Of a stretch of 64,000 nt of DNA, positions 23,837 through 37,803 are shown piece after piece. Within the stretch, counting starts at the first letter, position 1. Each line of letters opens with the position of its first letter. Both the position numbers and the translations under genes were made by a program. Where the stretch lies: NCBI RefSeq assembly GCF_022394535.1, contig NZ_CP089414.1, forward strand, positions 434,001-498,000, read 5' to 3'. This DNA is from Dyella terrae (lineage in GTDB: Bacteria > Pseudomonadota > Gammaproteobacteria > Xanthomonadales > Rhodanobacteraceae). Under the pieces are notes generated by a model. The model had not been told where the DNA came from. It did no database searches and worked only from the letters and a program-made list of their open reading frames with translations.

Positions 23837-24838
23837 GTGCGCGTATACCTGGGGTCATGGATGGGCGTGCTTTGCCTCGCCCTGTGGGTCATGCCGTTGC
23901 CTGCATCCGCCACCTTCTCCATTGTTGCTTGCGACCCGGCGGGCAATTGCGGCGTAGCCGTCGCGACCGACAACCTGGCGGTGGGGGCCACCGTGCCGTA
24001 CGCGCAAGCACGTACCGGGGCATTGGTGTCGCAGTTCGAGACGAACCCGAGCTACGGGCCCAGGGGCTTGGCTTTGTTGGCAACGGGTATAGCGCCCGAC
24101 GCGGTGATCCAGCGGTTGCTGGACGGCGATGGCGATTTCGATGGCACCACCATTGCGGAGCGTCAGGTGGGCATCGTGGATGCGTCCGGCCGCTCGGCGA
24201 GCTATTCGGGAGACGCGGCTTTGGCCGCGAGTTGGTCGGGGGCGCGTCATGGCGAGGGATACGCCGTGCAGGGCAATGGATTGGCGGGGGCGTCGGTGCT
24301 GGAGGCGATGGAAAAGCGCTTTCTCGCTGCACATGGAGCCCTCGGCGCGCGCTTGATGGCCGGCCTGGAGGCAGCGCAGGCCGCCGGTGGGCAAACCATC
24401 GGCAGAATGTCTGCCGCACTGCTGGTGCGCACGGTGGACGGCGGGTGGCAAGACATCGACCTGCGCGCGGACGGCTCGGCGGAACCCTTGACGGATCTGC
24501 GCCGACTGCTGGATCAGCACTATGCATGGCAGGCGATCGTGACGGCCGAACGGCAGTGGCGCGAGGGGCACGCGGCCGATGCGCGTGCATCGATGGCGCT
24601 TGCGTTGCAAGGTAGCCACGGCTGGGATCGCGTGTGGCGGCGTGGTGCGCGTCTGGCGATGTCGATGGGGGATACCGATCGCGCGCTCGATTGCCTGGCT
24701 ACGTTCGTAGCGACGAACCCCGTATGGGCGCGCAGCGAGCTACAGGATGAACTGTACGCACCGCTGCATGGCAATCGTCGTTTCGATGCCTTGCTACGGC
24801 ATGCGCAATCAGGTGCCAGGCCTGTGTTGCAGCCGTGA
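23837..24838 (+). CDS. Exported DUF1028 family protein (Ntn-hydrolase-like fold)
   Basis: A 333-residue protein starting at GTG 23837, with a signal peptide ending at PASA immediately before TFSIVACDPAGNCGVAVAT. The Thr after the signal cleavage and the FSIVA-D-xxG-GVAVA pattern are the hallmark of DUF1028, whose fold relates to Ntn hydrolases. The pattern QFETNPSYGPRG and the second-domain EGYAVQGNGL also fit. The C-terminal 100 residues are helical and TPR-like and are not part of the core domain. The biochemical role of the family is unknown to me. Confidence 0.82.
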   Translation: MRVYLGSWMGVLCLALWVMPLPASATFSIVACDPAGNCGVAVATDNLAVGATVPYAQARTGALVSQFETNPSYGPRGLALLATGIAPDAVIQRLLDGDGDFDGTTIAERQVGIVDASGRSASYSGDAALAASWSGARHGEGYAVQGNGLAGASVLEAMEKRFLAAHGALGARLMAGLEAAQAAGGQTIGRMSAALLVRTVDGGWQDIDLRADGSAEPLTDLRRLLDQHYAWQAIVTAERQWREGHAADARASMALALQGSHGWDRVWRRGARLAMSMGDTDRALDCLATFVATNPVWARSELQDELYAPLHGNRRFDALLRHAQSGARPVLQP

Positions 24839-24895
24839 CGCCTCCGTAACGCGTAGTTTGCGATACAGATATCTCACGTCATCGGGGCGTTGATC

Positions 24896-25288
24896 ATGAT
24901 CGAACAGATTCCCGGATTGCCGGTGGGTGCGTTGGGATTCCGTGCGAGCGGGCAGGTCACCGCGACGGATTATTCGCGCATATTGGTGCCGGACATCGAG
25001 GCGGCCTTTGCGTTGAACCGCAAGTTGCGCCTGCTCTACCATGTCGGCCCCGAGTTCACGGGGTTCGACGCGGGTGCTATGTGGGAAGACGCGCAGCTGG
25101 GTTTTCGCCACTTCAGCGGGTGGGATCGCGTGGCGCTGGTGAGCGATGTGCAGTGGTTGCGCCTTGCGGCTTCCGCCATGGGTTTTGCCGTGCCCGCTGA
25201 GTTCAGGCTGTTCCACAACGCTCAGTTCGACGAGGCCTTTGCCTGGATAGGCGAGCCCAGGGCCGCCGAGGACGATGGGAACAAATGA
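24896..25288 (+). CDS. SpoIIAA-like (STAS/SpoIIAA-like, DUF3478) protein
   Basis: A 130-residue cytoplasmic protein starting at ATG 24896 (MIEQIPGLPVGALGFRASGQVT). The pattern VLVPDIEAAF-like helix, LRLLYHVGPEFTGFDAGAMWEDAQLG and the ending FHNAQFDEAFAWI match the SpoIIAA-like family found widely in proteobacteria, whose function is not established. It lies 51 bases upstream of the asnB leader ORF, so the asnB promoter must fall in or near its 3' end. Confidence 0.78.
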   Translation: MIEQIPGLPVGALGFRASGQVTATDYSRILVPDIEAAFALNRKLRLLYHVGPEFTGFDAGAMWEDAQLGFRHFSGWDRVALVSDVQWLRLAASAMGFAVPAEFRLFHNAQFDEAFAWIGEPRAAEDDGNK

Positions 25289-25339
25289 AACTGTTTGCAG
25301 TGCTTGTCAGCCGGCGTGACATGTGGTGAAGTCGAGCTC

Positions 25340-25468
25340 ATGTCCAGCATCTGCGCCAAACTCGTCGCCATGACCGCCGCTTCCGCGTCGGCCGGCGAGT
25401 GCCTGCGCGCACTGAACAACAATAACGCCAATAACAATACCCGCATCAACGGGTGGGCCGGCGTGTAA
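25340..25468 (+). promoter_or_regulatory. Asparagine-rich leader peptide ORF of an asnB attenuator
   Basis: A 42-codon ORF from ATG 25340 (or 32 codons from ATG 25370) to TAA 25466. Codons 26-33 encode NNNNANNN, with one more Asn at codon 37. Runs of the codon for the pathway product just before an intrinsic terminator define ribosome-mediated attenuators. Three pairing regions can be drawn: GCCGGC (25391-25396) with GCCGGC (25457-25462), GGGCC (25455-25459) with GGCCC (25499-25503) as antiterminator, and the terminator itself. A ribosome paused at the Asn codons leaves 25455-25459 free; one at the stop codon covers it. A weak sigma70-like pair TTGTCA (25304) and TGAAGT (25327) would start RNA close to 25340. 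Neither ATG has a strong Shine-Dalgarno sequence. Confidence 0.82.
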
Positions 25469-25493
25469 GCAGAAGCAACACACATACACACGC

Positions 25494-25522
25494 AAAAAGG
25501 CCCGCTCCCAGCGGGCCTTTTT
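25494..25522 (+). terminator. Intrinsic terminator (attenuator) between the Asn leader and asnB
   Basis: AAAAAGGCCCGC-TCCCA-GCGGGCCTTTTT is a perfect 12-bp stem with a 5-base loop, followed by GTTTTTC. It lies 25 bases after the leader stop codon and 41 bases before the asnB ATG, so it must be read through for asnB to be expressed from the leader promoter. Its 5' arm can instead pair with 25451-25459 in the leader. Confidence 0.92.
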
Positions 25523-25562
25523 GTTTTTCAGCCACGCGAAAAATCATCAGGAAATCCAAGTC

Positions 25563-27236
25563 ATGTGCTCGATCTTCGGCATGTTCGATCTGCAACCCGG
25601 CGATGATCTGGCGGCCTTGCGCCAGCAGGCGCTGGAACTGTCCCAGCGGCAGCGCCATCGCGGCCCGGACTGGAGTGGCGTCTTCGTCGATGCAGGGGTG
25701 ATCCTTGTGCACGAACGCCTCGCCATTGTCGATCCCGCCAGCGGCGCGCAGCCCTTGCGTTCGCGCGATGGTGTACTGGCGCTGGCGGTGAACGGCGAGA
25801 TCTACAACCACCGCGAGCTTCGAGCGGCCAGCGACTACGACTTCACCACGGGTTCCGATTGCGAGGTGATCAACGCGCTGCATCAGGATGGCGCGACGCC
25901 TGCCGAATGGGTGTCCAGCCTCAACGGGATCTTTGCCTTCGCGCTGTGGGACAGCGCGGCGTCGCGTTACGTCATTGCGCGCGATCCCATCGGCGTGTGC
26001 CCGCTCTATTGGGGACACGATGGCGATGGGCGTCTGTGCGTCGCCTCGGAGATGAAGTCGCTGGTGGGCCTGTGCCATGACGTTGCGCCGTTTCCACCGG
26101 GACATATTTACGACAGCGCGGACGGCCAACTACGCTGCTACTACGTGAAACCATGGCGCGACTACGCGGCTACCCAGGGACATGATGTGTCGTTGCCGGC
26201 GCTGCGCGAGGCGTTCGAGCAGGCGGTGCACCGTCAGCTGATGACCGACGTGCCCTATGGCGTGCTGCTTTCCGGTGGCCTGGATTCTTCACTGGTGGCC
26301 GCCTGCGCCGCGCGCTTCGCGCGTCATCGCGTGGAAGACAATGACCGTGCGGAAGCCTGGTGGCCACGCCTGCATTCGTTCGCGATCGGGCTGGAAGGCT
26401 CACCGGATCTCGCCGCCGCACAGATTGCGGCCGACGCGTTGGGTACGGTGCATCACGGCTTTGTCTATACCTTCTGGGAAGGGCTGGATGCGTTGCCGGA
26501 GGTGATCCGCCATGTCGAAACCTACGACGTGACTACTATCCGCGCCTCCACACCCATGTACTTGCTGGCACGCCGCATCAAGGCCATGGGCGTGAAGATG
26601 GTGCTGTCGGGCGAAGGTTCGGACGAGATCTTTGGTGGCTACCTGTATTTCCACAAGGCGCCTTCTGCAGAAGCTTTCCATGAGGAGACCGTGCGCAAGC
26701 TCGACGCACTGCACAGCTACGACTGCCTGCGTGCCAACAAATCGATGATGGCGTGGGGTGTGGAGGCACGTGTGCCGTTTCTTGACCTGGAATTTCTCGA
26801 CGTGGCGATGGGCATGGATGCACGCCACAAGATGGCGGGGCAGGGACGCATCGAGAAAGCCGTGTTGCGCGAGGCGTTCCAGGGCGCATTGCCGGATGAC
26901 ATTCTCTGGCGGCAGAAGGAGCAGTTCAGCGATGGCGTGGGCTATGGCTGGATCGATGGCCTGAAGGCCCATGCGGAGCAGGCCGTGAGCGATCGCGAGT
27001 TCGCCGCAGCGACGACACGCTTCCCGCATAACCCGCCGGCTACCAAGGAGGCGTATCTGTATCGGCGCATCTTTGAGCGCTTCTATCCAGGGCCGGCTTG
27101 TGCAGAGACGGTACCGGGAGGCAAATCCATTGCCTGCTCTTCACCTGCGGCGCTGGCGTGGGATCCGGCGTTCGCCGCAGCTGCCGATCCGTCGGGGCGG
27201 GCTGTACGTGGCGTGCACCAGCAGGCGCTGGCGTAA
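25563..27236 (+). CDS. asnB: Asparagine synthase (glutamine-hydrolysing), class B
   Basis: A 557-residue cytoplasmic enzyme that makes asparagine from aspartate, glutamine and ATP. The ATG at 25563 is fixed by the second residue: Cys2 (MCSIFGMFD) is the N-terminal nucleophile of the glutaminase domain after Met removal. The glutaminase domain (1-205; RGPDWSG, NGEIYNH) is followed by the synthetase domain with the ATP-pyrophosphatase loop SGGLDSS (237-243) and GEGSDEIFGGYLYF. The length agrees with E. coli AsnB (554). An AGGAA motif lies about 11 bases upstream. Expression appears to be controlled by the attenuator just upstream, so Asn starvation should raise transcription. Confidence 0.96.
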   Translation: MCSIFGMFDLQPGDDLAALRQQALELSQRQRHRGPDWSGVFVDAGVILVHERLAIVDPASGAQPLRSRDGVLALAVNGEIYNHRELRAASDYDFTTGSDCEVINALHQDGATPAEWVSSLNGIFAFALWDSAASRYVIARDPIGVCPLYWGHDGDGRLCVASEMKSLVGLCHDVAPFPPGHIYDSADGQLRCYYVKPWRDYAATQGHDVSLPALREAFEQAVHRQLMTDVPYGVLLSGGLDSSLVAACAARFARHRVEDNDRAEAWWPRLHSFAIGLEGSPDLAAAQIAADALGTVHHGFVYTFWEGLDALPEVIRHVETYDVTTIRASTPMYLLARRIKAMGVKMVLSGEGSDEIFGGYLYFHKAPSAEAFHEETVRKLDALHSYDCLRANKSMMAWGVEARVPFLDLEFLDVAMGMDARHKMAGQGRIEKAVLREAFQGALPDDILWRQKEQFSDGVGYGWIDGLKAHAEQAVSDREFAAATTRFPHNPPATKEAYLYRRIFERFYPGPACAETVPGGKSIACSSPAALAWDPAFAAAADPSGRAVRGVHQQALA

Positions 27237-37661: not shown

Positions 37662-37803
37662 GAGCCACTAACAAAACTACTGCGCGGCCGCCAGACGGGC
37701 GCGGTCGGTGCTCGGAATCCTCATGTACGACGAGTACACTCCGGCTCCTCCGCGCCGTCCGCACCCGTCTGACGGCCGCTCGCTACGTTTTGTTAGCGGC
37801 TCT
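37661..37803. repeat. Large imperfect palindrome (about 143 bp) between lipoprotein and YCF48-like genes
   Basis: The outer arms AGAGCCACTAACAAAAC (37661-37677) and GTTTTGTTAGCGGCTCT (37787-37803) are inverted with one mismatch. The arms continue inward imperfectly through GCGGCCGCCAGACGGGCGC and GCACCCGTCTGACGGCCGC. The central loop carries a smaller dyad, TGTAC-GACGA-GTACA. The unit begins exactly at the stop codon of the preceding gene. Its size and structure fit a non-autonomous MITE or a REP-type element; only one copy of this family was seen in the window. Confidence 0.7.

Follow-up and report, generated by a model that had tools for sequence, protein, structure and literature searches.

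A conserved Asn-rich leader ORF and terminator upstream of asnB suggest a ribosome-mediated attenuator with a predicted 5'-terminal AUG

The window, a 64,000-nucleotide stretch of a 5.36-Mb genome, contains asnB, which encodes a glutamine-hydrolysing asparagine synthase B. The product matched NF006949 (asparagine synthase B) with 844.5 bits, the cut-off being 499, and PF00733 was also matched. The closest named AsnB loci were those of Dyella, followed by Rhodanobacter, both of the Rhodanobacteraceae (family 1 below). Upstream, a SpoIIAA-like gene ends at 25288. A promoter-like pair, a leader ORF and a terminator are all located between this gene end and the start of asnB at 25563:

25304..25309, + strand: -35-like element TTGTCA of the promoter predicted in silico
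25327..25332, + strand: -10-like element TGAAGT of the predicted promoter, 7 nt before the leader ATG
25340..25468, + strand: Asn-rich leader peptide ORF of 42 aa, MSSICAKLVAMTAASASAGECLRALNNNNANNNTRINGWAGV, assigned from reading frame and conservation
25415..25438, + strand: putative regulatory Asn codons 26–33 (7 Asn in 8 codons), with first bases 15–36 nt before region 2
25451..25466, + strand: region 2, the predicted 5' strand of the antiterminator, formed by the last codons and the first stop-codon base
25488..25507, + strand: region 3, the predicted 3' strand of the antiterminator, of which 25492–25506 doubles as the terminator 5' arm
25492..25528, + strand: predicted intrinsic terminator, stem 25492–25506/25510–25524, loop CCC, T run to 25528
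25563..27236, + strand: asnB, glutamine-hydrolysing asparagine synthase B, 557 aa (NF006949, PF00733)

The leader ORF extends from the ATG at 25340 to the TAA stop codon at 25466–25468. It holds NNNNANNN, and codons 26–33 read AAC AAC AAT AAC GCC AAT AAC AAT. Asn is encoded by codons 26–29, 31–33 and 37 (the last at 25448–25450), so that the leader ORF of the original prediction, with Asn codons 26–33 and a further Asn at codon 37, was confirmed in the sequence. The pattern of four AAY codons, any codon and three AAY codons occurred once on the forward strand of the 5,355,565 bases of the genome and not at all on the reverse strand; the backward-pattern control also gave no occurrence. The terminator stem has 15 pairs with a G-U at its base, a CCC loop at 25507–25509 and a 3' arm at 25510–25524, which is followed by the T run at 25525–25528. 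A perfect 12-bp terminator had been proposed at 25494–25522. It exists, but it is just the core of the 15-bp stem spanning 25492–25524. A simple consensus scan of 24500–26500 listed neither the leader terminator nor any sigma-70-type promoter. The terminator was probably missed because its U-tract sits inside the long stem, and the -10-like TGAAGT does not have the A that the scan requires at position 2.

The upstream regions were read for 110 asnB-homologue loci, for 60 further places in the family and for 60 places in other families of the order. The 110 loci include some repeats of one genome and some records without a family label, several of them named only as MAGs; for records from the unlabelled collection, AsnB was the ground for counting them as family members. 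Of the 84 family places without a locus, 82 were listed (the split gene of G028 was omitted), and 60 of these were examined. The 60 places in other families were hand-picked and comprised 47 from family f2, 3 from f3 and 10 from f10. A locus was counted if its upstream DNA was complete and its AsnB reached 75% identity. Two loci cut by contig ends and locus L110 were excluded from the leader count.

An ORF with at least three Asn in nine codons preceded asnB in 153/153 close-relative loci and in 50/50 loci of other families (47 of f2 and 3 of f3); the sequences are related, so locus and leader counts are not independent. At the stricter limit of at least four Asn in nine codons, the counts were 146/153 and 43/50, respectively, and 14 of the 203 leader loci contained only three clustered Asn. 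The controls at this limit gave 0/14 for the 62–65% identical paralog, 0/10 for f10 and 1/203 for the reverse strand. The AsnB of f10 is about 69–71% identical, and two of the ten f10 loci reach three clustered Asn, without a terminator. Dereplication left 174 leaders (124 from family 1 and 50 from families 2 and 3), and in all of them the terminator lay 18–34 nt past the leader stop. A terminator lacking a conserved Asn-rich ORF had been named as the case that would speak against attenuation; the outcome was the opposite, both elements occurring together in the 174 non-redundant leaders. AsnB relatives with E ≤ 1e-150 were found in five of 321 class genomes, including the window's own, and one of the five lies outside the order. 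In E. coli K-12, inspection by eye of the 400 nt before asnB found no Asn-rich ORF.

A related AsnB can also occur with no such leader. L110 (3001–4662, on a contig labelled Rhodococcus sp. RD6.2) encodes an AsnB 82% identical to that of the window; either the gene alone was transferred, or the DNA is mislabelled. The f10 AsnB is also without the leader, and in 6/10 loci (L232, L234, L235, L237, L238 and L240) an ORF ends at most 22 nt from asnB, which suggests an operon.

In the last 24 codons of the leaders, AAC was found 564 times and AAT 512 times, compared with 2 AAA and 5 AAG. With C or T in the third position of its Asn codons, the leader ORF appears to behave as a coding sequence. The AAT share of the Asn codons was 519/1141 in the leaders of 173 loci and 65/500 in the asnB genes of 69 relatives. 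As to the cause of this bias, we can only guess at slower decoding or at a lower degree of RNA structure.

Leader starts were assigned in 173 of the 174 leaders and were picked via a promoter score; L092 has no assigned start because its upstream DNA is cut. Ahead of the -10 element, the 173 leaders share a conserved CTTGC-like motif (with a 17-nt spacing in 125), and in 162/173 the -10-like hexamer ended 6 or 7 nt upstream of the leader ATG, counts that are partly circular since the start codons were chosen by promoter score. Two further properties played no part in the choice. Base -1 was C at 162/173 leader ATGs, compared with 37% of other ATGs, and Shine-Dalgarno-like 4-mers preceded the leader ATG in 14/173 cases, compared with 165/173 for asnB. 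With the -10 element so near to the ATG, transcription would be expected to start at the AUG itself. The transcription start is therefore predicted at or next to the A of the leader ATG, which would make the leader mRNA leaderless. The original prediction had regarded the poor Shine-Dalgarno sequence as a caveat. The sequence is indeed missing, but this would fit a 5'-terminal AUG and is better read in that way than as a weakness.

The antiterminator predicted for the leader in the window consists of 9 bp (25451–25459/25499–25507) and 6 bp (25461–25466/25488–25493). Region 3 includes the terminator 5' arm, and in silico the two structures are mutually exclusive. When a modelled ribosome was placed at several positions over codons 26–33, the pre-terminator folds of this leader contained the region 2:3 pairs, either fully or in their inner part. 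With the ribosome beyond the codon that follows this run, or at the stop codon, the terminator alone was left. Geometry and folding of the models thus agree with the earlier proposal that a stalled ribosome would leave region 2 free and that a ribosome at the stop would cover it. Across the leaders, region 2 began 12 nt or more downstream of 986 of the 1141 Asn codons and closer to the other 155; none of the codons was inside it, as a stalled ribosome requires.

With the ribosome at the median Asn stall, at least five region 2:3 pairs were formed in 173/173 leaders. Since 87% of synonymous recodings do likewise, we dropped this pair-number criterion as evidence. RNA downstream of the stop folded into the terminator in 173/173 leaders. 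The fold energy was -28.4 for the real leaders versus -20.9 for the recodings, and in 112/173 leaders at most 5% of the recodings were as stable; for the window's own leader, 7.5% were. The isolated duplex had a mean of -26.2 in family 1 (-19.0 when recoded) and of -26.0 in families 2 and 3 (-18.0 when recoded). It reached p ≤ 0.05 against synonymous recoding in 90/124 and 30/50 leaders, respectively, with p = 0.02 for the window. Exchanging the duplex partners between families yielded -19.6 and -19.9. The GGGCC/GGCCC antiterminator proposed earlier is conserved and on average more stable than its recodings, but it is longer than claimed (9 bp + 6 bp).

Alignments were made of 76/98 (A1) and 40/45 (A2, second-family rows only) dereplicated leaders, with omissions by hand of mostly divergent sequences. 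A third alignment (A3) comprised 31/51 leaders from a pool already without 17 divergent leaders. In the second family (40 sequences), both-sided changes affect three antiterminator pairs, from UA to CG (in 5 and 10 sequences) and from GC to AU (in 3). These changes occupy 18 cells versus 7.9 in shuffles, and 85.7% of the antiterminator cells pair versus 27–44% when the strands are slid. The number of both-sided pairs (3 versus 2.9 shuffled) and of pair types (6 versus 7.5) was not above shuffles in this family. In family 1 (76 sequences), the 8-bp part of the antiterminator is nearly invariant, with 97.7% of the cells paired, and 84.1% are paired in the 6-bp part; its column covariation was not above shuffles. 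The homologue alignment suggested with the original prediction thus revealed conserved Asn runs and, in the second family, both-sided changes, but no antiterminator covariation beyond shuffles in family 1. The terminator had compensatory pairs in both family alignments, located in relatives within the A/T-rich lower part of the stem.

The original prediction also contained a region 1:2 protector (25391–25396/25457–25462). This pairing can be drawn in the window, but it is not conserved, and in some relatives the Asn run starts after only about 6 codons. We rejected it. In untranslated pre-terminator folds, region 2 was mainly paired upstream in 38/173 leaders, and pairing with region 3 was at least equal in 135/173. 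The terminator was present in 162/173 untranslated full-length folds. The family-1 consensus fold showed no structure ahead of the stop-codon region. A small hairpin past the Asn codons reached -4 kcal/mol in 151/173 leaders, with p ≤ 0.05 versus synonymous shuffles in only 22/173. A 1:2 protector or pause hairpin belongs to the trp archetype but is not known from every described attenuator.

With these results in hand, we consider it very probable that the locus controls asnB by ribosome-mediated transcription attenuation, with charged tRNA-Asn as the signal that is sensed. The leader ORF, its Asn codons, the predicted terminator and antiterminator, their spacing and their conservation can all be read from the DNA, and by most of the testable sequence criteria the locus would be a conserved Asn-codon transcription attenuator, unusual in its predicted leaderless initiation. 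The comparison of relatives supports the Asn-sensing attenuator that had been proposed upstream of asnB. We infer the transcription start, the translation of the leader, the stalling and the regulation of asnB as follows. From the promoter, transcription would begin at the leader AUG or no more than one or two bases away from it, so that ribosomes would load on the 5'-terminal AUG. When Asn-tRNA is plentiful, the ribosome would pass the Asn codons, reach the stop and cover region 2; the terminator (regions 3:4) would then form, and transcription would end before asnB. Under a shortage of Asn-tRNA, the ribosome would wait at the Asn codons, all of which lie upstream of region 2. Region 2 would be free to pair with region 3 as antiterminator, no terminator would form, and asnB would be transcribed. 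If the leader AUG is indeed 5'-terminal, no RNA precedes the ORF, a conserved protector hairpin is lacking, and the switch depends on the position of the ribosome alone. AsnRS was above the cut-off in 16/16 genomes checked, and GatB was found in 0/16 of them, with 12/14 control genomes positive. The presence of AsnRS and the absence of GatB suggest that Asn-tRNA is made from free asparagine, and its charging may thus report the product of asnB.

An arrest caused by the nascent peptide itself, for example with free Asn as co-factor, could replace uncharged tRNA-Asn as the stalling signal. Within family-1 groups, the peptide is indeed conserved in its 3' half (NNNNANNNxR..GWAGV or ..WRARA). However, the peptide outside the Asn run differs between groups (GWAGV, WRARA, RMRVCD, LPRAGD), its assigned length varies from 20 to 91 aa, and the C-terminal leader codons serve RNA pairing. 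These features make an arrest peptide improbable. We regard as somewhat less probable still a terminator that works constitutively or is that of the upstream gene, combined with a spurious ORF and an asnB promoter downstream of the terminator. The high stability of the stem, the distance of up to 441 nt between leader stop and asnB in relatives, and the lack of a promoter before the leader in the consensus scan would fit such an arrangement, but the Asn codons conserved with C or T in the third position, the promoter-like pair conserved before the leader ATG and the complementarity of region 2 all link the ORF to the terminator and argue against it. A T-box or metabolite riboswitch acting on the terminator, with the Asn ORF being secondary, is very hard to credit: the terminator does lie directly upstream of an amino-acid gene, but no Rfam family reached its gathering score at the leader (sub-threshold matches only, in seven relatives, some of them to Thr_leader RF00506, Leu_leader RF00512 and Trp_leader RF00513), and in one genus the leader of 22 aa has about 6 codons ahead of the Asn run, which leaves little room for an aptamer.

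Several relatives (for example L024, L092, L095 and L100) carry short palindrome-like repeats, such as GCGCGGATCCATCCGCGC and GGCCATGGATGGCCGG, in the stretch that separates the attenuator from asnB.

A covariance model of the family-1 leader was trained on 31 leaders. Searching 117 family genomes yielded 76 matches with E < 1e-5, all just upstream of asnB according to coordinates compared by eye. The next two, with E 2.6e-5, were found at asnB in G086 and at a gene end in G034. Weak matches occurred in 40 of 229 class genomes, the best outside the window's own genome having E 3.8e-7. Inspection by eye of eight matches away from asnB, at seven places in six class genomes and in one family genome, revealed no Asn-rich leader before asnB. 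The match with E 3.8e-7 (L248 in G510, 2639815–2639932) has short Asn stretches before a terminator; asnB was not seen in the part inspected. The model misses second-family leaders, with no match in G158 and a match only elsewhere in G147. It is therefore blind to these leaders and uninformative on divergent Asn leaders outside the order.

Ribosome-mediated attenuators control the his, trp, phe, thr, leu and ilv operons in Proteobacteria. The asnB leader resembles them in its run of codons for the product amino acid, in the alternative antiterminator and terminator hairpins and in the biosynthetic gene that follows. It differs from them in being an Asn leader with asnB as the controlled gene, in the predicted leaderless AUG and in the absence of a conserved 1:2 protector; unlike the known attenuator leaders, it is also not reached by any Rfam leader model at its cut-off. 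Five of the leader peptides gave no match in NCBIfam and one weak match in Pfam. T-box riboswitches act on Gram-positive amino-acid genes. They likewise sense tRNA charging at a terminator, but the sensor predicted here is a translated ORF, and the T-box covariance model had no match at the leader or at the leaders of the relatives.

The literature matches listed, from a search mostly outside subscription papers, included no Asn attenuator of asnB. A term search found neither 'asparagine' nor 'asnB' in the main texts of PMC2965389 and PMC1262725. In PMC3771888, the single mention of asnB concerns a qRT-PCR test of this gene in Xanthomonas, and the asparagine passage of PMC5864092 is on another matter. 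Polycysteine leaderless short ORFs of mycobacteria are described in a passage of the review PMC9031893 citing Canestrari et al. 2020, a study also in the reference list of PMC13236596. According to this passage, they share with the asnB leader a short ORF that is leaderless (predicted here), contiguous codons for one amino acid and the use of ribosome speed as a sensor. The mycobacterial ORFs have Cys codons and regulate downstream translation in the account of the review, whereas the asnB leader has Asn codons and an intrinsic terminator as its predicted output. Contiguous Cys codons of the mycobacterial type are absent from the asnB leader, where Asn codons are found instead. As far as that passage describes it, the closest precedent for an attenuator ORF with leaderless initiation is the mycobacterial cysteine system.

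We think it likely that the asnB leaders form a previously undescribed class of Asn-sensing attenuator, present in at least three families of one order, whose leader is translated from a leaderless 5'-terminal AUG. Such a class would extend ribosome-mediated attenuation in Proteobacteria to asparagine as a further amino acid, and it would point to a mode of asnB control in an order to which well-known plant-associated genera belong. It would combine leaderless initiation with a terminator-based attenuator, giving a simple system for studying how translation from a 5'-terminal AUG couples to RNA polymerase. The 174 leaders provide a comparative data set that is ready for use.

Elsewhere in the window, at 37723–37798 on the + strand, Rfam RF02228 (Xanthomonas sRNA sX9) was matched with 86.2 bits, the gathering score being 44, in this genome near Dyella.
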